This document shows, one piece after another, positions 31,079 to 43,652 of a DNA stretch of 64,000 nt. Numbering within the stretch: position 1 is the stretch's first letter; each line of letters starts with the position of its first letter. The stretch lies in the NCBI GenBank assembly GCA_019058295.1, contig JAHPZI010000006.1:62001-126000 (forward strand). Direction: 5' to 3'. The notes below the pieces were generated by a model. It had not been told where the DNA came from. It was given only the letters and a program-made list of their open reading frames with translations, and made no database searches. Source of the DNA: Promethearchaeota archaeon. GTDB taxonomy: Archaea; Asgardarchaeota; Lokiarchaeia; Sigyniarchaeales; SOKP01. Both the position numbers and the translations under genes were made by a program.

Positions 31079-31927
31079 ATGCCAAAAATTGAAATTAGAT
31101 GCCCAGCTTGTAATAAAAAAGGATATATGGAAGTAGATGGAGTCATTTTAGAAAGGAAAATGGAACGGGGCATTATGACTATAAATTTAGGAAAAGATCA
31201 AATATGTGAGCATACATTCGTAGCCTATATTGATAATAATCTCCAAGTGAGAGATTGTTTTATAACCGATTTTCAAATCGAAATTCCAGAATTAGCTCCA
31301 TCTGAAATAGTTTTAGAAACAAAAATTCCCAGTTCTGAAGAGCTTAATGTAGATTTGATCAAAATGAACTTCTATCCCCTTACACTAACTTTTATTATAA
31401 GAGGAGGTTTTTTAAACAAAAAAATATTAGTTTTGAGTGAAGATGAATTTTTAAATAATTTTCTCAAGAATTTCTTCGAATTTATTTATAAAAATTCCTT
31501 TAATTTAGATATTATCATTTTGTCAATGGAAAAATATAAAAAAAATAAGAAGAATTATGAAGACTTCTTAATTATTAAAGACAAAAAGATTATAAGAGAT
31601 AAGGATAAAATACTTGATGTTAAAAAACTAAAAATAGAAAGTTTAATTATTCAAAGGTTTTATTCTGAATATATAGCAAATTCTAGCTTACTTTTTCTGA
31701 AAAATGAAATTTATAAAACTTATTTATTATCAAAAAGCATTGTAGATTTTATTAAAGAATTTAAAGGAGAAGAATTACTTTCAAAAAATATCCTTGATAA
31801 TTTAGAAAAAGTTCATAATGTTAAAATACAAATACCATATTTGGATTTCTTACTTGAAATTGTTAAAAATTATTTTAAAGTGGAAGTGCCAAAAACATCT
31901 AAAATTTCAGATTTCCTAAAATTTTAA
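31079..31927 (+). CDS. Zinc-ribbon hypothetical protein (Asgard-type)
   Basis: A 282-residue protein beginning with a small zinc ribbon: CPACNKKGYMEVDG, then ICEHTFVAYIDNNLQVRDCF, giving CxxC ... CxH as likely zinc ligands. A helical, Lys-rich remainder (about 95-282) follows. I do not know the function. My impression is that N-terminal modules of this type recur in Lokiarchaeota-like genomes, but I cannot check this. It precedes a seven-helix membrane protein by about 80 bases on the same strand. Confidence 0.65.
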   Translation: MPKIEIRCPACNKKGYMEVDGVILERKMERGIMTINLGKDQICEHTFVAYIDNNLQVRDCFITDFQIEIPELAPSEIVLETKIPSSEELNVDLIKMNFYPLTLTFIIRGGFLNKKILVLSEDEFLNNFLKNFFEFIYKNSFNLDIIILSMEKYKKNKKNYEDFLIIKDKKIIRDKDKILDVKKLKIESLIIQRFYSEYIANSSLLFLKNEIYKTYLLSKSIVDFIKEFKGEELLSKNILDNLEKVHNVKIQIPYLDFLLEIVKNYFKVEVPKTSKISDFLKF

Positions 31928-32010
31928 CATGAATTTTATATATAAGAGCATTGATTTATATTATAAATAAAAATATATCATAAAAATATAGAAAAAGTTG
32001 AAATCTGCCT

Positions 32011-32745
32011 ATGGCGTTATATATATTACCAACTGAACAATTAATTAGTGGATTATTCAGCCTTTTTTTTGTGATAATCTCATTAATTATTGGATTAATG
32101 TTAATCTCGAAATATTTCAGATATAAACAAAGTAACTTTTTATTAGTTGGTTTGACGTGGATTGGAATGGTTTCAATATGGTATCCTAGCGCAATCAATG
32201 TAATATATTTTTCCATTACAGGTAAGAGTATATCGGATTTATTATTTATGGCAATTGGAAATGGTTTAATTCCAATTACCGCATTTATTTGGATGATTAC
32301 GTTTACAGATCTTTTATATAAAGAGAAACAAAAAATAATTCTTATAATATTTGGGATTTTAAGCATTTTAACTGAAATCATATTCTTCTATTTTCTCTTT
32401 ACAGAACCATCTGTTCTTGGAAAAGTAGTATCCCCTGTAGACGCTATAACGACATTACCGGTTATAATTTATCATATATCCATATTACTCATGATCTTAA
32501 TAACAGGGATATTAATATGGAGAGAATCTTTAAAATCCACTGATCCAGAAGTTAATTTAAAAGGAAAATTACTTCTTACAGCAGTTTTATCTTTTATCAC
32601 TGGGGCCATTTTTGAAATTTTTAGCGATTTATCAATTATTATAATAATTATAGGTAGATTAATATTGATTTCCTCGAGTCTCGAATTTTATATGGGCTGG
32701 ATACTTCCATCGTTTATCAAAAATCGATTATTAAAAGAGAGTTAA
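32011..32745 (+). CDS. Seven-helix membrane protein, unknown function
   Basis: A 244-residue membrane protein with about seven hydrophobic helices, short loops and a basic C-terminus (FIKNRLLKES). The N-terminus is extracellular-like, and the arrangement resembles a 7TM sensor, but I find no retinal lysine motif or other diagnostic residues. It is convergent with uvrA; the gap is about 35 bases. Confidence 0.65.
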   Translation: MALYILPTEQLISGLFSLFFVIISLIIGLMLISKYFRYKQSNFLLVGLTWIGMVSIWYPSAINVIYFSITGKSISDLLFMAIGNGLIPITAFIWMITFTDLLYKEKQKIILIIFGILSILTEIIFFYFLFTEPSVLGKVVSPVDAITTLPVIIYHISILLMILITGILIWRESLKSTDPEVNLKGKLLLTAVLSFITGAIFEIFSDLSIIIIIIGRLILISSSLEFYMGWILPSFIKNRLLKES

Positions 32746-32779: not shown

Positions 32780-35653
32780 TCAGTTAGAAAAATTCAGAGA
32801 TTTTTTTAAATATTTAGCTGTATATGATCTTTCATTTCTAATAATCTCTTCCGGACTTCCCATAACAACAATTTCACCCCCTTCATCACCACCTTCTGGA
32901 CCTAAATCAATAATATAATCCACAGATTTTATAATTTCCATATTATGCTCAATAATTATTACGGTATTGCCTTTATCGACTAATCTTTGAAGGACTTTTA
33001 ACAAAATCTTTATATCATAAGCACTTAATCCTGTTGTTGGTTCATCTAGAATATAGAGAGTATTGCCTGTACTCGTTTTTCTTAATTCCCTAGCAATTTT
33101 TAGCCTTTGAGATTCTCCTCCACTTAAAGTTGTTGATGATTGTCCCAATTCTAGGTAACCTAAGCCAACATCCACAACAGTTTTTAGCGTTCTTTTTAGG
33201 TTTGGAAAACTATCAAAGAATTGTAAAGCGTGATCAAAAGTCATGTCCAGAACGTCTGAAATTGTTTTTTTCTTAAATTTAATTTCAAGAGTTTCCGCAT
33301 TATATCGCTTTCCTTTACATAAATCACATCTAATATAAACATCAGGAAGAAAATACATTTCCTTAAGGATGTAGCCTGTGCCTCTACATTTTCTACAATG
33401 ACCTGCCTTTGTATTAAAGCTGAATCTCCCTTTTTTATATCCTCTTTCTCTAGATTCCTGTAATGCAGCAAATATATCTCTAATATAATCCATAGCTTTA
33501 GAATAAGTTGCGGGAACTGACCTTGGTGTCTTTCCTATTGGTGATTGATCAATATTAATGATTTTATCAATGTTCTCAAATCCATTTATTTCATCAAAAT
33601 CACCTGTCCTTAATTTAGAGCTTCGAATATTAACAAGATTATGTAATCCTTTATAAAGACATTCAATAAACAAACTAGTTTTACCAGCTCCTGAAACTCC
33701 TGTTACACACGTAAATATTTCTAATGGAATTTTTACATTTACATTTTTTAAATTGTTTTCTCTAGCGCCTTTAATCTCAATAAAGTCATCTCCAATATTT
33801 CTTCTTTTTTTAGGGATTGCAATTTTCTCTTTTCCAGATAAATATTTTCCAGTTAAACTATTTGCTTTTATTATGTCTTCGACTGGCCCTTCTGCAACTA
33901 TTTCTCCACCGTGTTCTCCTGCCATTGGTCCTAAATCAATGATATGGTCAGCATTTCTAATTACAGCATCATCATGTTCTACAACTAATACAGTATTTCC
34001 TAAATTTCTCAATTTCTTTAGCATATTAACTAATCGAGAGATATCTCTCTGGTGTAAACCTACTGTAGGTTCATCTAAGACATATAAAACACCCACTAAA
34101 GTTGAACCTAATTGAGTTGCTAATCTTATTCTCTCTGCTTCTCCAACAGATAATGTATCTGATCTTCGACTTAATTGAATATAGTCTAATCCAACATTAT
34201 TCAAGAATGAGAGTCTATCCTTAATCTCTTTTAATACATCTTTTACAATAGTTTTCTGAATATCATCAATGCCTAAACTTTCAAAAAATTTTATAGAGTC
34301 TTTTACGGGTAGATTTGTTAATTCAGCGATATTTAAGTCATTAATTGTAACAGCTAAACTTTCAGGCTTTAATTTTTGCCCATTACATTTAGGACAATCA
34401 ATTCGATTCATAAAGCTCTCATAGACTTCACGAGCTCCTTCTGACGTGGTCTCCATATACCTCCGATGTAGCATAGGAATTAAACCTTCAAATGGTCGAG
34501 CCGTTTTCCAGGATGTAAAAGATTCATTATTAGAATTCCTATAGTCATTTCTATCACTAACAAAATGAAAATTTATATTTTCATCCCCTGAACCAAATAA
34601 TAATTTTTGCAATTTATTGGGATCAATTTCTTTAATTGGTGTTTCATCAATATCGAAATCATAATGTTCTGACACTTGATTTATCATTTGCCATGAATAG
34701 CCTGTTGAAGATCTAAATCCTGGTATATTTCTTATACCACTTTCTGCCAGTGGAACAAAAACATTATTTCCCAATATTAAACTATAATCAAATTCCATTA
34801 CAGTGCCCAATCCATTACAATATTTGCAACTACCATGGGGTATATTAAATGAAAACATTTTATGGTCAAGAGGAGGTAAAGAAATTTGGCAATCTAAACA
34901 TGCATAGTGTTCGGAATATATTTGCTCATTTTTTCCTATTAATTCAACAAGAACAATTCCTTCAGTTAATTCCAATGCTGTTTCTATAGAATCAGCAAGC
35001 CGAGTTTTAATGTCCTCTTTCATAACAAGCCTATCGATTATAACATTAATATTGTGTTTCACATGTTTTTCCATTGGAATTTCTTCATCAAGAGTATATT
35101 GAATCCCATCAACTTCTACACGAACATATCCTTGTTTTTTTAGATCTTGTAAAAGTTCTTTATACTCACCTTTTCGATCTCGTATTAAAGGTGCTTTAAT
35201 TATGAATTTTTGATTCTCTTTTAGAGACTTTAGAATTTGATTTATAATTTGTTGAGGTGTTTGAGGTTTGATCTCTTTTCCGCAATTTGGACAATGCGGT
35301 ATCCCTATATTTGCGAATAATAGTCTGTAATAATCGTAAATTTCAGTTACAGTTCCTACGGTACTTCGAGGATTTTTTGAAAGAGGTTTTTGCTCAATTG
35401 CGATAGCAGGTGATAACCCCTCAATAGAATCGACATCTGGTTTGTCCATCTCTCCTAGAAACTGTCTTGCATAGCTTGAGAGAGACTCCAAAAATCTTCT
35501 TTGACCCTCAGCAAATAGAGTATCAATAACTAATGAACTCTTACCACTTCCAGAAACGCCAGTAACAACTACGAGCTTATTTCTGGGAATATTTACGTCA
35601 ATATTCTTTAAATTATGCTGTCTAGCTCCCTTGATTATTATATAATCATTCAT
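32780..35653 (-). CDS. uvrA: Excinuclease ABC subunit A (UvrA)
   Basis: A 957-residue UvrA, the damage-sensing dimeric ATPase of bacterial-type nucleotide excision repair. Walker A GVSGSGKSS is near residue 35, the first signature LSVGEAERIRLA, the second Walker A GVSGAGKTS and signature LSGGESQRLKIA, and zinc modules CPNCGKEI, CLDCQ...CKYCNG and CRKCRGTG...CDLCKGKR. All functional elements are present, so it should be active. Archaeal UvrABC systems are generally considered horizontally acquired from bacteria. uvrB is on the same strand, 6 kb upstream, instead of adjacent; uvrC is not in the window. Confidence 0.97.
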   Translation of the reverse strand: MNDYIIIKGARQHNLKNIDVNIPRNKLVVVTGVSGSGKSSLVIDTLFAEGQRRFLESLSSYARQFLGEMDKPDVDSIEGLSPAIAIEQKPLSKNPRSTVGTVTEIYDYYRLLFANIGIPHCPNCGKEIKPQTPQQIINQILKSLKENQKFIIKAPLIRDRKGEYKELLQDLKKQGYVRVEVDGIQYTLDEEIPMEKHVKHNINVIIDRLVMKEDIKTRLADSIETALELTEGIVLVELIGKNEQIYSEHYACLDCQISLPPLDHKMFSFNIPHGSCKYCNGLGTVMEFDYSLILGNNVFVPLAESGIRNIPGFRSSTGYSWQMINQVSEHYDFDIDETPIKEIDPNKLQKLLFGSGDENINFHFVSDRNDYRNSNNESFTSWKTARPFEGLIPMLHRRYMETTSEGAREVYESFMNRIDCPKCNGQKLKPESLAVTINDLNIAELTNLPVKDSIKFFESLGIDDIQKTIVKDVLKEIKDRLSFLNNVGLDYIQLSRRSDTLSVGEAERIRLATQLGSTLVGVLYVLDEPTVGLHQRDISRLVNMLKKLRNLGNTVLVVEHDDAVIRNADHIIDLGPMAGEHGGEIVAEGPVEDIIKANSLTGKYLSGKEKIAIPKKRRNIGDDFIEIKGARENNLKNVNVKIPLEIFTCVTGVSGAGKTSLFIECLYKGLHNLVNIRSSKLRTGDFDEINGFENIDKIINIDQSPIGKTPRSVPATYSKAMDYIRDIFAALQESRERGYKKGRFSFNTKAGHCRKCRGTGYILKEMYFLPDVYIRCDLCKGKRYNAETLEIKFKKKTISDVLDMTFDHALQFFDSFPNLKRTLKTVVDVGLGYLELGQSSTTLSGGESQRLKIARELRKTSTGNTLYILDEPTTGLSAYDIKILLKVLQRLVDKGNTVIIIEHNMEIIKSVDYIIDLGPEGGDEGGEIVVMGSPEEIIRNERSYTAKYLKKSLNFSN

Positions 35654-35813
35654 AAATAATTGCTTATAGTAAAGTAAAATTTGAGATTAATAAAGCACAT
35701 CTTCTAGGTTACTTAAAAGATCGGTTCTTGGTAAACTTTATGAAAAACGTAAACTCTTAAGATTTCTTTTTCTGAGACTTAACCATGATAGAAAGTCATT
35801 CTTCTTTTTGTAT

Positions 35814-36536
35814 TTAATACCCCCAAGGAGGCGGATCGAATATAGTACCATCTCCTATTAAGTCTTCATCAGCATCATCAAACTCTTCATCTTCATAATA
35901 ACTTGTTTTTATAGATCTGAAATATGAAGGGAGTTCCTTAAAGAATTTATTTGGCATATATAATACTTCAAGTGATTTAAGATTAATAAATGATTTAGGA
36001 AGCGATTTTAGCTTATTATCAAGTATATTTAATTTTCTAAGATTTCTTAAATTACCTAAAGAATCTGGAAGGTATTTGAGTTTAGTATGAAATAAATTAA
36101 GATCTATCAAGGATTGTAATTCTCCTATCGGCTCGGGAATCACTTTTAATGAATTTCTACTTAAATCTAATACCTCAAGCATCTCTAAATCAAATATCTG
36201 CTTCGGAAATAATTTAAACTTGTTTTCTTTCAGACTTAGGTATTGAAGCGATGCAAGGTTGGTGATTGATTCGGGAAGAGCTTTTAACTTGTTTTTCTCT
36301 AAATCTAATTCTTTTAAGAACTTAAGTTCACAAATAGTCTTAGGTAAGAATTTTAATTTACAATTAGATAAACCTAATTTTGTTATATTCTTCCCATCAG
36401 ATTCAAATCCAAACTCAAAGAATCCTTTTCCATAGGTTCGAGTAATAGGTCTTTTTATGAGTTGCTCTAATTCTGTTAATGCCTTAGCTTCGGATTTCGG
36501 GATTTCTGCGCCTCTAAAGGAAAATAATTTACTCAT
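35814..36536 (-). CDS. Leucine-rich repeat protein (short paralog)
   Basis: A 240-residue LRR protein with about six repeats of the LxxLxLxxNxLxxLPxS type. It has an N-terminal cap (PKSEAKALTELEQLI...) similar in layout to that of the 464-residue LRR protein at 18438-19832, and an acidic Asp/Glu-rich C-terminus (DDADEDLIGDG) ending in PPPWGY. It is the first gene of the accessory block upstream of uvrA. It probably mediates protein binding; the partner is unknown. Confidence 0.82.
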   Translation of the reverse strand: MSKLFSFRGAEIPKSEAKALTELEQLIKRPITRTYGKGFFEFGFESDGKNITKLGLSNCKLKFLPKTICELKFLKELDLEKNKLKALPESITNLASLQYLSLKENKFKLFPKQIFDLEMLEVLDLSRNSLKVIPEPIGELQSLIDLNLFHTKLKYLPDSLGNLRNLRKLNILDNKLKSLPKSFINLKSLEVLYMPNKFFKELPSYFRSIKTSYYEDEEFDDADEDLIGDGTIFDPPPWGY

Positions 36537-36588
36537 AATTTAATCTCTTTTTAGCTTATTCAAGATAAAATGTCAAATTTGTTGTCAT

Positions 36589-37128
36589 TTAAGGTATTCC
36601 TTGTTTGTATTTCAAGATTAATCGCTCGGTTTCTTTATACTCAGTAACCCATTGATCGCTTATAATATATGGGTCTTGATTCTTAATATAAATATAAATA
36701 AACCAAAATAACCCTTTGGAAAGACCTTTTTTGTTTTTGACTGTCTTTCTTTCTGATTTAGAATTTGTTATTATATCAAATGGAATGAAAATGCGTTTTA
36801 AGGGAATTAATGGATTAAATTTTTCAGCTAAAATATGATCTTTTCGATATTCAATTTTTCTGACTAATACCCCATTTTCATAAATGACAACATAGGTTAA
36901 GAAAAACCGAATAATCCAAAAAATAAAAAACATCCCTGAAATCAAAATAAGAGCACTAATTATTAATTTAAACACATCAAATGTATTTAGAATATTCAAG
37001 AAATTTAAGTAAAATCCGAGCAGTCCAATGGAGGTAAAAAAAAAACCCATAAAGCATAGAATAACAATTCCAAACCAAGGTCTATGTGCTTTACTTTTAA
37101 ATAATAATTTACCTCTTTTAGCTTTCAT
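36589..37128 (-). CDS. Two-helix membrane protein with PH-like tail
   Basis: A 179-residue protein. The N-terminus is basic (MKAKRGKLLFKSKAHR), two hydrophobic helices lie around residues 18-42 and 52-78, then a soluble beta-rich region (VVIYENGVLVRKIEY, LIPLKRIFIPFDIITN) suggests a PH-like/bacterial-PH fold. I do not recognise the family. It sits between an LRR gene and the three-gene cassette in the accessory block, with about 36 bases to the gene upstream. Confidence 0.6.
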   Translation of the reverse strand: MKAKRGKLLFKSKAHRPWFGIVILCFMGFFFTSIGLLGFYLNFLNILNTFDVFKLIISALILISGMFFIFWIIRFFLTYVVIYENGVLVRKIEYRKDHILAEKFNPLIPLKRIFIPFDIITNSKSERKTVKNKKGLSKGLFWFIYIYIKNQDPYIISDQWVTEYKETERLILKYKQGIP

Positions 37129-37164
37129 AAGAATTGTCTTCTATGTTTTTTTTATTAGGAATAA

Positions 37165-37800
37165 TTATGTAAGATTTAGATTCTCCAAAGTTTTTTTTGC
37201 TATTTCCTTGTCTTCTTTTGAAAGAGAATCTAAAAAAAAATTAATTTCATCTTTTATGAGAAAAATTATATCCTCAAAAGCAAATCTAGTAAAAAATCTT
37301 GATATTTTTTCACATAATACTTTTTGTGCTTCATTCTTTAATCTCGCTACAAAATATTTTTCAAGACTTCCAGTAAAAAATTCATAGGGTATCAGAAATA
37401 GATTTTTAAAGTCTAATAATTTGGGTTCCTTAAATAACTCAATCTCGTCAGAAGGGGGAAAATAATGTATTCTAGTATCATCTCTTATAATACTCTTTAT
37501 TCCTTTGATCCTTTTCTCTAAGTTGCTCGGAGAAAGTTTATCTTTTGGTAATTTTTTTAGTTCAGCAAATAAAATTGAAGAATTTGGTCTTATATCACAA
37601 GATTGTGATAAAATAACACCCGTAGTTAAAAAAGGTCTGACATTATAACTAGCTTTTTTTGGTAATTTGTCTGAATTTAAAGACTTTAACCATTCTTCCT
37701 TTATCTTGCTAAAATCAATTTGATTTGGAGTAATTTTCGGGAGATTTTGTAAAATATCTCCTTGATTGAGATAATCAGGGATTTCTTTTATGTAAATCAT
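37165..37800 (-). CDS. Hypothetical protein with GVILSQSCDI motif (cassette gene 3)
   Basis: A 211-residue soluble protein, the third gene of the cassette behind the TIGR04255-like gene. The most distinctive part is TTGVILSQSCDIRPNSSILFAEL around residues 55-75 (described here in pieces: GVILSQSCDI, then SILFAEL), a strand-turn motif with Ser and Cys-Asp that could form an active site. The C-terminus is helical (FFTRFAFEDIIFLIKDEI). Function not recognised. It starts 15 bases after the preceding stop, consistent with one operon. A toxin, nuclease or sensor role is speculative. Confidence 0.6.
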   Translation of the reverse strand: MIYIKEIPDYLNQGDILQNLPKITPNQIDFSKIKEEWLKSLNSDKLPKKASYNVRPFLTTGVILSQSCDIRPNSSILFAELKKLPKDKLSPSNLEKRIKGIKSIIRDDTRIHYFPPSDEIELFKEPKLLDFKNLFLIPYEFFTGSLEKYFVARLKNEAQKVLCEKISRFFTRFAFEDIIFLIKDEINFFLDSLSKEDKEIAKKTLENLNLT

Positions 37801-37815
37801 TTAAATTCAGTATAA

Positions 37816-38427
37816 CTAATAATTTAATATTCTAGATACATCTTCTTCAAATCTAATATGATTTTCCGTTTCTTTTTCTAACATTTTCAAACAATCAATT
37901 AAATCTTTTATAGTATCAATATACTCCAGAGGAGTATTGGATAATAATGAATTTTTATAAGATTCTAGAAAATTTAGATCAATCCAATAAGTCGGACAAA
38001 TTTTCCATTGAAGAGCAGCATTTATTTTATCAAATGTCTCAGAATTTATCATATCGAGACCAAATAATTGAAATATCTCGAAAATTTGTCCAAATGTAAA
38101 AAAAATCTGCTTTTTTGTTTTTTTTGAATCTAAAAGAATATTTTCTATAAATTTATCGAAAATTTGAGGTAATATTTCTTTAAAGCCAAAATAAATTTTC
38201 TTTAAAGCCAATATTATTTTATTTAATATTTCATAAAGGAAATTAAAAAATCGTACAATAAAACTTTCACTCTCTTCAATAGCAAGGGTTGGAGCTGTGG
38301 TAATTTCTGTGCTTTCATATTTTTCAATATCCTCGAATTCTTCGAAATTTCTATAAGCATTAAATAAACTTTCTGATAAATTTTTGATAATATCTTCATT
38401 ATATAACGCAGATTGAACTTCAGTCAT
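37816..38427 (-). CDS. Hypothetical helical protein with amphipathic/hydrophobic stretch (cassette gene 2)
   Basis: About 203 residues. The ATG at 38427 overlaps the stop of the preceding gene in an ATGACTGA arrangement, typical of translational coupling; a GTG at 38439 in the same frame is the alternative start. The middle contains a hydrophobic/aromatic stretch (VRFFNFLYEILNKIILALKK) that may be a membrane or amphipathic helix, followed by helical segments and a helical C-terminus with NHIRFEEDV. No catalytic motif is apparent. Its tight coupling to the TIGR04255-like gene suggests that the two act together. Confidence 0.6.
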   Translation of the reverse strand: MTEVQSALYNEDIIKNLSESLFNAYRNFEEFEDIEKYESTEITTAPTLAIEESESFIVRFFNFLYEILNKIILALKKIYFGFKEILPQIFDKFIENILLDSKKTKKQIFFTFGQIFEIFQLFGLDMINSETFDKINAALQWKICPTYWIDLNFLESYKNSLLSNTPLEYIDTIKDLIDCLKMLEKETENHIRFEEDVSRILNY

Positions 38428-39154
38428 TTTTTTTAACACCTAAAGTTTGCCTTAAATTTTCACTCATTATATTGAAGAAATAATCAATAATGGTATCATG
38501 AACATAATTTAAATCATCAATTAAGATCTGTTCATCATCAATTGAGAATTCTTTCTGCTTTAAATAAATACTTTCTAATCGAAATAGAAAAGATTCAATT
38601 TCTTTTATTGGTATTCCACGTAATCTAATTATAAATGTATCATTTTCCAGAGTATTTATTTTAATACCGGTATGAAAATCATTAAAGTCAATGCTCCACT
38701 TTTCTGGTTTATTAATAGACAAATTAAAATAATTGCCTAGATCAAAATTCTTTTTTGGAAAAGTAAATTCATCAATATATTCCATTCTAAATTGCTCAAT
38801 TTTATCTATTTCTAGGATCTTGCATGAATTTAATACCAATTTGACTATTTCCCCTTTTATTTCATTCCAATGCGTATATTCCGTGAAAATAAATATTAGA
38901 CCATCTGAAAAAAACTGAATTTGTCCACTTTTTTCTTTATTTAAAAATCTAATAGGTCCTATTTGAATTGGGACTTTTGCCTTTATTTTAACATCATAAG
39001 GATATTCTATAATATCTAAACTAGGAGCATTAGGATAATCTTTTTTAAGAAGCTCTTCAACTTTGGACATCATTTCAAATGATATTTTCTCAGGCTTTTT
39101 AAATTTAAAATCTATCCTAAAAGTTTTAAGAGGTGGCTTTTCTATTGTTAGCAT
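38420..39154 (-). CDS. TIGR04255-like protein (cassette gene 1)
   Basis: A 244-residue protein with the layout of the sporadically distributed TIGR04255 family. It has an N-terminal segment on parallel Pro-containing strands (PPLKTFRIDFKFK), a GQIQFFSDGLIFIFTEYTHW segment (the family's usual 'QF..d.l.vn....Y..W' region), IEQFRMEYIDEFTFP followed by DLGNYF, and a C-terminal helix VHDTIIDYFFNIMSENLRQTLG. Family function is not established; members occur in variable, often defence-associated loci. It leads a three-gene set on one strand (38420-39154, 37816-38427, 37165-37800). Confidence 0.65.
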   Translation of the reverse strand: MLTIEKPPLKTFRIDFKFKKPEKISFEMMSKVEELLKKDYPNAPSLDIIEYPYDVKIKAKVPIQIGPIRFLNKEKSGQIQFFSDGLIFIFTEYTHWNEIKGEIVKLVLNSCKILEIDKIEQFRMEYIDEFTFPKKNFDLGNYFNLSINKPEKWSIDFNDFHTGIKINTLENDTFIIRLRGIPIKEIESFLFRLESIYLKQKEFSIDDEQILIDDLNYVHDTIIDYFFNIMSENLRQTLGVKKND

Positions 39155-39332
39155 TGTTTTTTTCTAATATTATTTATGAATATATTGTCATTTACCAATA
39201 AATTTTTTATGTTTATAAAATCCTTGAAAAAGAAACTAAAAAACGCCAAGAGAGAACTAATATTAGAAAGTTGAAATAGAATGTAAGGGAGAAGGGATAA
39301 AAGAGAATCCAATAATTATTGAATCCGTATCA

Positions 39333-39470
39333 CTAATAGGTTTTTCTTTTGTTCGATTTTTCATCTCTCCTTGATTTACTTGATTGAAGGAAATGATTAA
39401 TAAGGTAAATAATAGCGGAAACAAATCCAATAATTGCTGTTGCTAGATTAATCAAATCTGAGATATTCAT
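39333..39470 (-). CDS. Small single-helix membrane peptide (45 residues)
   Basis: An ATG-initiated 45-codon frame in the 450-base gap between the cassette and the next gene. It reads M-N-I-S-D, then one hydrophobic helix (LINLATAIIGFVSAIIYLIN), then a basic tail rich in Lys/Arg (SSKSRRDEK, KRK). This organisation (one membrane helix, positive tail) is seen in small toxin, holin-like and regulatory peptides. No homology is claimed. Support is limited to composition and location in an accessory block. Confidence 0.4.
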   Translation of the reverse strand: MNISDLINLATAIIGFVSAIIYLINHFLQSSKSRRDEKSNKRKTY

Positions 39471-39607
39471 TTTACTTTTTTATGAAAATAATATTTTTAT
39501 TTTGTTAATACTTAAATAGAAAGATTGACTTATTTTATTTATGGTGACTAGAATGGTCAACATTGACTATTTAATATTAAAACATAATCAATAATAACTT
39601 TAAGAAA

Positions 39608-40639
39608 ATGATTAATAAAGCAAATATCTATAGCATTTCTCTTATCATAGAGTATCTGTGGTATAATCCTCGTCGTAAAATGGAGGATTTAATTAAAAAT
39701 AAAGTAAGAAGTAAGAATACTTTAAAACGCTATTTATATGGTCAGAGATATGGATATAGTGACGACGAAAGCTTAATAGATAATGGAATTTTAATTGCTC
39801 ATTCTACAACAAAGAAAAAAAGTAGAAAAACTGGTAAAATAAAATCTTACCCTGATGAATTTGAAGTTAATCAAGATTGGTTAATTTCGAATATTAATAA
39901 ATTTCCTAATATAAAAAAAGTAATCCGTTTTGGTAATGAGGATTTTGGATATGAATTCTATACTGTTGATGAAGCACGAAAAAAAATCGAAGAAGATAAG
40001 GGATATAGAGAAATGGATGCAATTTATCAAATTTATGAGAGTATCTTTGCAAATTCTATTTCTCATGAAATAAAACAAAATCCCAATTCAAAGTCATTTT
40101 ATTTCTCTGAAGAACAAAGAATTGCAAAAAGCTGGTTGATATATGGATTATTACTTATTTCTTTCGCATATAACCCAGATTTATGGAATTCATTAGAAAA
40201 AGTGGATGATTTTAATTTTGAAATGACAATTAAAATAGATATTCCAAAAGAATATCAAAATGATTTCTTTAATGCTTTTCAAAAAGTAAGGGATTTTTGC
40301 ATGAAAAAAAAACAGTTACCTTCTTCCTTAAAATTTCCCTTAGAAAAAAGTTTAGCACATATTCGTAGAATGAGTAAAGGACTTCTTATTAAAAATCCAC
40401 CAAAGACGTCAAAGGAGGATAAAAAAGAAATACCATTCCATAATGATCTTGATGTGTTTGAGGCTGTCGCATATATGCAACAAGGAACTTATGAGGAAAA
40501 TAAAAATAAGATTAATGCTGAAAATAAAAAGGATTTAAGAGAACTCATCGAACTTTTAAAAATATCAAAACCTTACTACCAAGGAAGCCAAGAATTAAAA
40601 TCGATTAATAAGCAATTGAAAAAAGTAAAAAAAAAATAA
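39608..40639 (+). CDS. Hypothetical protein, accessory block
   Basis: A 343-residue soluble protein on the plus strand, opposite to its neighbours. The first ~90 residues are basic with a helix-turn-helix-like start (IYSISLIIEYLWYNPRRKMEDLIKN-type, then KNTLKRYLYGQRYG). The middle is helical (EQRIAKSWLIYGLLLISFAY), and the C-terminus is Lys-rich (KQLKKVKKK). Function not recognised. It and the HEPN-like gene end convergently 65 bases apart. A DNA-binding role for the N-terminus is possible. Confidence 0.6.
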   Translation: MINKANIYSISLIIEYLWYNPRRKMEDLIKNKVRSKNTLKRYLYGQRYGYSDDESLIDNGILIAHSTTKKKSRKTGKIKSYPDEFEVNQDWLISNINKFPNIKKVIRFGNEDFGYEFYTVDEARKKIEEDKGYREMDAIYQIYESIFANSISHEIKQNPNSKSFYFSEEQRIAKSWLIYGLLLISFAYNPDLWNSLEKVDDFNFEMTIKIDIPKEYQNDFFNAFQKVRDFCMKKKQLPSSLKFPLEKSLAHIRRMSKGLLIKNPPKTSKEDKKEIPFHNDLDVFEAVAYMQQGTYEENKNKINAENKKDLRELIELLKISKPYYQGSQELKSINKQLKKVKKK

Positions 40640-40704
40640 TTTCTATCAAATTTTAACCAAAAATATAAAAGCTGTTATTTCTTAAATAATAGAGAAGGAA
40701 CTTA

Positions 40705-41310
40705 TTAGGGAAACATTTTAAAAAAATTTCTTAATCCAATAATCATAATCTTTACTTCCTCTTCAGAATAATTATTATAATTACCATGTGCTGCATCATT
40801 CCTTATGCCTAACCAAGCTGTCACTTGTTTCATCTGAGTTTTTGAGTAAACATTTTCCCCTTTCAAATCTGAATTCATCTGATCAGCTTTTTTAGGTTTT
40901 ACTCTCCCAGATGTCGTAATTTCTATATCAATGCCATTTTTTTCACATAGCTTTCTTAGATGTTCTTCTAAGGTACTTCCTGCTATAACAGCAGAAGCAT
41001 CTTTATATTTCTCATCTAAAAGATATTGTGCCATATCTAAATAATCAGAAAAAATATCTCCATGTATTAATTCTGATACTGTCTTAAGGTAATCTTGTTG
41101 CAAATCCTTATATAATGCAATTAAGGCTCCTTTAACAAATTTAAAGCGATTTACAATTAATTTATCACTTTCAAAATATTCTTCAATTCTTATATAATAT
41201 TCTGATTTTTTACCTGCAATCCTATCTATCACTGATAATGCTCTTGTAATACAAGTACTTAAAAATTCTCTACTTTTATTTACTGAACCAGCATATTGAC
41301 CATTCTTCAC
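40705..41310 (-). CDS. HEPN-like protein (putative RNase/nucleotide-binding), 5' end uncertain
   Basis: A 201-residue protein whose C-terminal half looks like a HEPN domain: DASAVIAGSTLEEHLRKLC, then TAWLGIRNDAAHGNY with the R-N-x3-H motif (about residues 170-175) that forms the active site in HEPN RNases, and a final helix. HEPN proteins act in toxin-antitoxin and anti-phage systems. The listed start is GTG at 41310, but the frame stays open without a canonical start back to 41382 and those codons look coding (YPIVEELNKV), so the true start may be non-canonical or lost. Confidence 0.65.
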   Translation of the reverse strand: MKNGQYAGSVNKSREFLSTCITRALSVIDRIAGKKSEYYIRIEEYFESDKLIVNRFKFVKGALIALYKDLQQDYLKTVSELIHGDIFSDYLDMAQYLLDEKYKDASAVIAGSTLEEHLRKLCEKNGIDIEITTSGRVKPKKADQMNSDLKGENVYSKTQMKQVTAWLGIRNDAAHGNYNNYSEEEVKIMIIGLRNFFKMFP

Positions 41311-41470
41311 ACTATTAATATCACTTAAAATTTCTTCAATTTGTTTAATAAAAACCTTATTTAATTCTTCTACTATTGGATATCACCTGAATTTTTATTA
41401 ATTAATATAAGCCATTCATATAATAAGTAATTTGATATGACAATTTATTATAAATAACAAAGAAAGAATT

Positions 41471-41593
41471 TTATAAGTTCCCACCCCCACTTACCCCCAT
41501 AATCACAACTAATTTATTTCTGGGAATAATTACATTAATATTCTTTAAATTGTTCTGCCTAGCCCCTTTAATTATAATGGGATTATCAGTCAT
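41471..41593 (-). pseudogene. uvrA: Decayed 5' fragment of uvrA downstream of uvrB
   Basis: Forty codons from ATG 41593 to a TAA ending at 41471. They match the start of the intact UvrA at 35653: after a shared IIIKGARQ, 19 of the next 26 residues are the same (for instance [17 protein letters not shown]). The Walker A motif is destroyed (GVSGGGN then stop instead of GVSGSGKS). It begins 67 bases downstream of the uvrB stop on the same strand, where uvrA would be expected in a uvrB-uvrA operon. The rest of the gene is missing here. Confidence 0.88.
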
Positions 41594-41660
41594 CTCTTAT
41601 CAATGATTATTGAATTAATCAAAAATGAAAAATTCTACGATTTTATTTTATAAGAATTCT

Positions 41661-43652
41661 TTAAATCTTTAATTTTAACTTAAGTTCTTTGATTCTATCC
41701 CTCAAATACGCAGCATCTTCAAATCTTAATTCTTTTGCTGCTAAAAACATTTTATTCTCAAGATATTGTATAATCATCTCATTATCACCTAATTCTTCCA
41801 TTTTATCCTCGATTGTTCTTTTCAACCTCTTGCTTTCTTTCTCCTTGAATTCTTTTTCTTCTGAAAGTGATTCTAAGATATTCTTTTTGACTGTTTGAGG
41901 TGTAATATTATTAACTTCATTATATGAGATTTGTTTAGCTCTCCTTCTGTTTGTCTCATCAATTGCAGCTTTCATCGCAGGAGATGTTTTATCAGCATAT
42001 AATATAGCCCTCCCGTTAATGTTTCTTGATGCCCTTCCTATAGTTTGGATTAATGAGCGAGTATCTCTCAAAAAGCCAAGTTTATCTGCATCGAGTATAG
42101 CCACTAATTGAACTTCTGGTAAATCAAGACCTTCACGTAGGAGATTTATACCTACAACGCTGTCGAAGGTTCCATCTCTTAGTTTTCTTAAAATTTCAAA
42201 CCTTTCTACAGTATCAACTTCGGAATGTAAGTATGCAATTTTAATTCCCAATTCTGCATAATATTCTGCAATATCTTCAGCCATTCTTTTAGTTAATGTA
42301 GTAATCAAAATCCTTCCTTTATTATTTATAACTTTGCGGAGTTCCCCTAGTAAATCATCTATTTGGTTTTCAGCTGACCTAACTTCAATCTGAGGATCGA
42401 CTAATCCAGTAGGGCGAATGATTTGTTCTGCCGAAATTCCACCACTTTTCTTTAATTCATAATCTCCTGGAGTAGCACTCATAAAAATAATATATTTAAT
42501 TTTGCTTTCCCATTCTTCAAAAGTTAATGGTCTATTATCGTAAGCGCTTGGAAGCCGCCACCCATATTCTATCAGATTTTTCTTACGTGCTTTGTCACCG
42601 CCTATCATACCACGGATTTGCGGAACCGTAACGTGAGATTCGTCTACTACAATCAAAAAATCTTGTGGGAAATAGTCAATCAAATTCATTGGGGGTTTTC
42701 CTGGAGGTCGCCCATCCAAATGTCTTGAATAATTTTCAATTCCCTTACAATAGCCCATCTCTCTCATCATTTCTAAATCAAATTTTACTCTCCTTTCAAT
42801 ACGTTGAGCTTCTGCGTACTTTTTTTCATTTTTAAAGAATGCAATCTGTTTCTTTAATTCCATTTTTATGGATTCTAATGCTTTTATTTTATTTTCTTCT
42901 GGAATAATAAAATGGGTAGCTGGAAAAATTCGACAATTGGGTAATTCTTTAAGAACTTGATTAGAAAGCGGATGGATTTCTTGAATTGATTCAATCTCGT
43001 CTCCAAATAACGATATTCTTATAGCTGTATCTAAGTATGCTGGAAAAATATCAACAATATCTCCTTTCACTCTAACAACGCCCCTTTTAAATTCAATGTT
43101 TTTTCGTTCGTAATTCATTTTGATTACGCGTTTCAATATATCAGATCTTTTAATAGTTTGTCCTACTTCTAAATCCAATGAAACAGCAACCCATTCATCA
43201 GGATTTCCAATTCCATAAATGCATGAAACGCTAGCGACTATTATTACGTCCTCTCTAGTTTTTATCGCATGGGTAGACGCCAATCTTAATTTTTCAATTT
43301 CCTCGTTTACGCTAAAATCTTTTTCAATATACAAACCAGTAATCGGCATATAAGCTTCAGGTTGATAATAATCATAATATGAGACGAAATAATGAACTGC
43401 ATTATGAGGAAAGAGTTCTTTAAGTTCATTATATAATTGTGCCGCTAAAGTTTTATTTGGAGCCATTACTAATGTAGGTTTCTGGACTTCTTGAATTATA
43501 TTAGCAATTGTAAAAGTCTTTCCTGTTCCGGTCGCACCTAATAATGTTTGAAAGCTTTTACCATTTTTAATATTTTTAACAAGATTTTTAATTGCTTGAG
43601 GTTGATCTCCTCGTGCCGTAAATTCAGACTCTATTTTGAATTTTTTACTCAT
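41661..43652 (-). CDS. uvrB: Excinuclease ABC subunit B (UvrB)
   Basis: A 663-residue UvrB, the helicase-fold subunit that verifies damage after loading by UvrA and positions UvrC. Walker A GATGTGKTFT is near residue 40, the beta-hairpin YYDYYQPEAY near 95, DESHV as motif II, helicase motifs TLTKRMAED and QTIGRASRN, and the C-terminal UVR domain (LENKMFLAAKELRFEDAAYLRD) that contacts UvrC. Full length and intact. It belongs with the intact uvrA at 32780-35653 functionally, though now separated by accessory genes. Confidence 0.97.
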   Translation of the reverse strand: MSKKFKIESEFTARGDQPQAIKNLVKNIKNGKSFQTLLGATGTGKTFTIANIIQEVQKPTLVMAPNKTLAAQLYNELKELFPHNAVHYFVSYYDYYQPEAYMPITGLYIEKDFSVNEEIEKLRLASTHAIKTREDVIIVASVSCIYGIGNPDEWVAVSLDLEVGQTIKRSDILKRVIKMNYERKNIEFKRGVVRVKGDIVDIFPAYLDTAIRISLFGDEIESIQEIHPLSNQVLKELPNCRIFPATHFIIPEENKIKALESIKMELKKQIAFFKNEKKYAEAQRIERRVKFDLEMMREMGYCKGIENYSRHLDGRPPGKPPMNLIDYFPQDFLIVVDESHVTVPQIRGMIGGDKARKKNLIEYGWRLPSAYDNRPLTFEEWESKIKYIIFMSATPGDYELKKSGGISAEQIIRPTGLVDPQIEVRSAENQIDDLLGELRKVINNKGRILITTLTKRMAEDIAEYYAELGIKIAYLHSEVDTVERFEILRKLRDGTFDSVVGINLLREGLDLPEVQLVAILDADKLGFLRDTRSLIQTIGRASRNINGRAILYADKTSPAMKAAIDETNRRRAKQISYNEVNNITPQTVKKNILESLSEEKEFKEKESKRLKRTIEDKMEELGDNEMIIQYLENKMFLAAKELRFEDAAYLRDRIKELKLKLKI

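Follow-up and report, generated by a model that had tools for sequence, protein, structure and literature searches.

Recurrent interruption of uvrA at its Walker A codons, with foreign 5′ ends and varied cargo, in a family of Lokiarchaeia

In a 64,000 nt stretch of Lokiarchaeon DNA (hereafter the window; genome G000, contig C6 of a 3.2-Mb assembly that is 79 % complete), uvrB and uvrA are separated by a block of accessory genes, and a fragment of uvrA lies behind uvrB, which raises the question of how one locus came to hold two uvrA starts and what was brought in between them. The original prediction described a degenerate uvrA 5′ end at 41471–41593, 67 bp after uvrB, where uvrA would start in an intact operon, and proposed either integration of a mobile element that carried its own uvrA start or a duplication followed by decay. 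Using tblastn with the window's own UvrA, we recovered this stub at 7e-10 (82 % over 33 aa); the match runs from UvrA residue 1 up to the Walker A motif, with none beyond, and stops at ∼41478, the final bases of the stub as first reported being already block DNA. The second ABC domain of UvrA matched the same place more weakly (1e-6), in keeping with a remnant of uvrA rather than of another ABC ATPase. The break in the stub falls at the codon for the Walker A lysine, between GGGAA and C. As had been proposed, the only full uvrA begins at 35653, no second full copy being found in the genome; its start lies 5.9 kb beyond the stub, behind seven accessory genes (Table 1). This count of seven ORFs includes the small membrane ORF, which had earlier been taken as an addition to the seven. 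The uvrB gene of this genome contains no intein.

Table 1. Features of the uvrB–uvrA locus in the window, in order from uvrB to uvrA
Feature	Position	Strand	Remarks
uvrB	41661..43652	-	663 aa, intact, NCBIfam equivalog
Original uvrB–uvrA intergenic DNA	41594..41660	-	Collinear with G004
uvrA stub	41478..41593	-	∼39 codons; the host's original uvrA 5′ end; 98–99 % identical to G004 start
Left breakpoint, host/inserted DNA	41477..41478
RiboL-PSP-HEPN-like protein	40705..41310	-	E 4.8e-6, slightly below the Pfam threshold
343-aa protein	39608..40639	+	No family
TIGR04255 family protein	38420..39154	-	NCBIfam 47 bits against a cut-off of 30
207-aa protein	37816..38439	-	No family
211-aa protein	37165..37800	-	Near TIGR04255 homologs in G061, G010, G018, G076, G079
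179-aa membrane protein	36589..37128	-
Leucine-rich-repeat (LRR) protein	35814..36536	-
Imported upstream region of working uvrA	35654..35813	-	Differs from the G004 uvrB–uvrA spacer
Working uvrA	32780-35653	-	957 aa, TIGR00630/NF001503 equivalog
Imported 5′ end of working uvrA	35498..35653	-	Codons 1 to ∼50
Host-derived body of working uvrA	32780..35497	-	By comparison with G004

A genome of the same genus (G004) has uvrB and uvrA adjacent, with uvrA in the position of the stub, and thus provides the uninterrupted arrangement for which a comparison with relatives had been suggested. The two loci are collinear on either side of the block (94.1 % and 92.2 % DNA identity), the window's spacer plus stub is 98–99 % identical to the spacer plus uvrA start of G004, and identity between the stub itself and the start of the uninterrupted G004 gene is 0.99. 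Alignment of the two uvrA starts of the window gave an identity of only 0.78, the working start having diverged and resembling those of other genera. Between the working uvrA genes of G000 and G004, third-position identity was 0.55 over codons 1–40 and 0.7–1.0 thereafter. As the stub agrees with the G004 start, whilst the working uvrA is well matched to G004 only from about codon 50, these alignments identify the stub as the host's own uvrA start and the front of the working gene as imported and joined to a host-derived body; the exact switch point is uncertain, at roughly codons 46–52. The imported upstream region would then supply the promoter. Two uvrA starts at one locus are also what a tandem duplication of uvrA with decay of the first copy would leave, but the G004 comparison refutes this reading and leaves it virtually no probability: the stub is nearly identical to the single uvrA start of G004, the functional start is nearest to other genera, and the uvrA body is host-like. 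Among repeats spanning the block borders, the best, at 81 % over 80 bp, was that formed by the two uvrA starts.

Homologs of the block's TIGR04255 gene and of the 211-aa gene occur sporadically, in five relatives, and never beside uvrA; G004 has neither. No donor carrying the window's cargo beside uvrA was found, and PADLOC defence-system models gave no match to this cargo. Downstream of uvrA, at 31079–32745, the window also holds a gene for a cysteine-rich 282-aa protein and a multi-TM gene, and in G008 similar-looking cysteine-rich and multi-TM genes lie between uvrB and uvrA, flanking a 567-aa transposase-like gene.

Among the family loci read, uvrB and uvrA were adjacent in ∼24 and separated in ∼17, the latter including G068 and also G060, in which the seeming adjacency is with a stub; the distance between the genes on one contig ranged from 174 bp to 20.6 kb. 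Besides G000, a uvrA stub follows uvrB in nine other genomes of Lokiarchaeia: G019, G035, G071, G060, G077, G063 and G076, together with G068 and G001, where it is more decayed (to codons ∼23 and ∼10, respectively). None was found in family f2 (8 genomes). Eight stubs, that of the window included, end within 6 bp of one another at the Walker A codons GSGK^S, with hand-read offsets from the end of the Lys codon of 0, 0, 0, 0, -1, +2, -3 and -3 nt (the stubs of G019 and G063 have small internal deletions), and so define a constant site of insertion within the 5′ portion of a core gene. The probability of such clustering is ∼3e-10 if ends are uniform over codons 1–57, and ∼2e-7 if only six are independent. 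Independence itself rests on the differing DNA at the left ends; the insert sequence adjoining the stub varies among genomes, with a few pairs weakly similar, and G063 and G068 share sequence there that probably reflects one event. Two successive events are suggested for G035, whose stub sits 890 bp downstream of uvrB and itself belongs to the imported type. Breakpoints were partly read by eye and family assignments come from the tool.

Different inserts carry different cargo. At the loci L119, L073, L123, L158, L077, L076 and L120 it is very varied, comprising TPR and WD40 proteins, multi-TM proteins, glycyl radical enzymes with their activase and a TetR-like regulator, a ClC channel, a Fic protein and an enoyl-CoA hydratase. 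Since every locus comes from metagenome-assembled genomes and several contigs end near the junction, an assembly or binning chimera was considered; the window's block, however, lies inside a 144-kb contig and the same structure with different cargo recurs in many separately assembled genomes, making an artefact very improbable. One contig (G067:C96, L124:1) has its first base precisely at the Walker A core of uvrA, as though the assembly had forked at that point, and several others end just upstream of uvrA. Five fairly complete family members (G080, G005, G085, G082 and G060) yielded no canonical full uvrA, and second UvrA-like loci, with ∼835-aa frames beside ∼1630-aa (multi-ABC) frames, were seen in G033:C34, G006:C289, G035:C10 and others.

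In insert-bearing genomes the uvrA 5′ segment is often nearest to other genera whilst the body is nearest to its own genus. The 5′ segment of G000 is 0.86 identical to that of G068 and its body 0.92 to that of G004; the 5′ segment of G071 is 0.93 identical to those of G068 and G059 and its body 0.93 to that of G083; G076, G084 and G001 are likewise discordant. In insert-free genomes with close kin, by contrast, 5′ segment and body are mostly concordant. Ahead of the imported starts, the noncoding sequence is also conserved across genera and falls into two groups, one of ∼110–135 bp (G033, G035, G059, G061, G063, G068, G076, G084 and G006) and one of ∼180–200 bp (G013, G019, G072, G077, G081 and G062). 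G018 has an imported 5′ end without cargo; the uvrA body to which it is joined shares 95 % identity with that of G011. Thus, the new 5′ end, with a presumed promoter, comes from the incoming DNA and the old one lies at the other border. Across 14 close pairs of insert-bearing and insert-free genomes, synonymous codon identity was 0.36–0.60 through residue 52 and 0.74–0.90 beyond.

Taken together, these comparisons show uvrA to be interrupted at its Walker A P-loop codons. The host's own start is left as a stub behind uvrB, and unrelated DNA is joined to it; this DNA terminates in an upstream region and uvrA codons 1 to ∼50, both foreign, that are fused to the host body. Within one Lokiarchaeia family this result recurs with cargo that varies. 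The insertion with an incoming uvrA start that had been proposed is thereby borne out as an outcome, but its attribution to a mobile element is not established, as the inserts showed no integrase and share no cargo, and the two junctions are not reciprocal. In single cases the foreign-to-host switch falls at codons 41–58, whereas the stub ends at codon ∼38, so that reciprocal attL and attR junctions with a common core are not present, and host codons ∼39–50 are absent from both copies. As the imported tract runs past the stub breakpoint the exchange was not reciprocal, and the loss of host codons fits one-sided break repair and not conservative or reciprocal site-specific recombination.

We therefore tentatively prefer, with somewhat less than even confidence, a recurrent break at the P-loop codon followed by one-sided repair from a foreign uvrA, a homing endonuclease being the candidate cutter. 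Under this scheme uvrA would suffer a recurrent double-strand break at this codon, most simply by a homing endonuclease of the P-loop-intein type, and the right-hand end (the uvrA body) would be repaired by leftward copying from a foreign uvrA. As that donor would be preceded by other genes and by a promoter of its own, its 5′ end and cargo would be brought in, after which the left-hand broken end would be joined illegitimately. Being coded differently, the imported P-loop region would then also be a poorer target for renewed cutting. In eight insert-free pairs, synonymous identity over codons 25–41 was 0.69–0.73 against 0.79–0.92 for the body, a weak signal. The intact uvrA of G075 (L138), compared with the otherwise near-identical gene of G083 (L131), has a dense patch of recoded synonymous codons at 37–41, which could be the footprint of a two-sided repair.

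No nuclease would be needed if, after DNA uptake, uvrA homology anchored the incoming DNA at one end and microhomology at the P-loop allowed an illegitimate join at the other. Such homology-facilitated recombination needs no recombinase, would take as cargo whatever sits upstream of the donor uvrA, and would find the P-loop GC-rich within an AT-rich region. However, the foreign tract always ends within codons 41–58 and not anywhere in the 2.9 kb of homology, and eight left ends fall within 6 bp, both of which leave it improbable.

The main rival to break repair is an integrative element or genomic island whose integrase, since lost or acting in trans, uses the uvrA P-loop as attB and brings in a promoter and 5′ end. 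The anatomy is that of the dusA-specific genomic islands, which interrupt a conserved gene at its 5′ end and carry varied cargo, the new 5′ end coming from the island and the old one lying at the outer boundary (Farrugia et al. 2015, PMC4482086). A passage of PMC8409611 describes the same for SXT/R391 in prfC, with an incoming promoter and N-terminus and the old 5′ end at the outer border. The fixed left junction, the right ends of ∼110–200 bp conserved across genera and the contig of G067 that begins exactly at the core would also suit an element, and the last ∼16 bp of the G071 stub, which look foreign, are what an attachment-site crossover would likewise yield. The dusA islands, however, encode integrases, excise as circles and have 21–28 bp attachment repeats (PMC4482086; IMEVchUSA3, PMC8409611), whilst neither integrase nor circles were found for the inserts described here, the P-loop of an archaeal uvrA is the target and foreign sequence continues beyond the breakpoint. 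Similarly, SXT is a conjugative element, whereas no transfer or recombination genes were recognized in the uvrA inserts.

In agreement with the original prediction, no integrase or other recombinase was recognized in the window's block, nor in any other insert read (0.2 to 20 kb), part of the insert ORFs having been run against Pfam and the genome-wide searches covering tyrosine rather than serine recombinases. The sole PF00589 match in G000, 316 aa long, belongs to a class of ∼315-aa proteins that every one of the 13 genomes searched contains and that we read as XerA-like, and no uvrA 5′ piece lay near the other tyrosine recombinases fetched. A scan of viral contigs with six uvrA N-termini returned no true relative and no free form of an element, and a literature search joining Asgard archaea, integrase and uvrA found no paper. 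With junctions that are also non-reciprocal, we regard such an element as rather unlikely. As such, the uvrA inserts are not filed as a dusA/prfC-type element, though the outcome is the same, because an element-borne recombinase and reciprocal junctions were looked for and neither was found.

Returning to break repair, the cut that it calls for has a counterpart in the partner gene. P-loops are known intein sites, occupied by inteins with LAGLIDADG homing endonucleases (review PMC5874633), an enzyme class that cuts DNA at the insertion point. In G073 and G063 we found a UvrB intein with splicing and LAGLIDADG domains at GATGTGK^TF, and homologous inteins occupy the same site in four other Asgard genomes. 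In uvrB the corresponding P-loop codon is thus an insertion point, and the uvrA break coincides with the canonical GK^S/T codon boundary that P-loop inteins use. Across these six genomes the intein is ∼529 aa long, includes a helix-turn-helix domain and sits at the Walker A lysine (loci L140:4881–8474 in G073, L168/L291 in G063, and L292–L295); our literature searches found no report of an Asgard UvrB P-loop intein. The target of the UvrB intein itself differs from uvrA to the right of the site. At uvrA, in contrast to the P-loop inteins, what remains is a stub together with cargo and a foreign 5′ end, and searches of the family and of the uvrA genes listed across the phylum found no intein in uvrA; the homing-endonuclease step is accordingly one that we infer, its cutter being hypothetical. 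One suspiciously long uvrA match (L223) proved to be two tandem UvrA paralogs and not an intein.

These findings describe a site in Asgard archaea at which accessory genes repeatedly enter one operon and where empty sites can be compared with filled ones, and such events explain the separation of uvrA from uvrB in part of the family. A broader reading, which we hold more loosely than the repair scheme itself, is that the uvrA P-loop codon may be a natural target of homing endonucleases in Lokiarchaeia, where failed homing repairs would repeatedly have left the gene with a foreign, differently coded front and with captured neighbouring genes, making the uvrB–uvrA junction an integrase-free hotspot of gene acquisition. 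If a homing endonuclease is the cause, selfish nucleases would, besides spreading themselves, open conserved genes both to the capture of unrelated cargo and to the replacement of a P-loop coding region.
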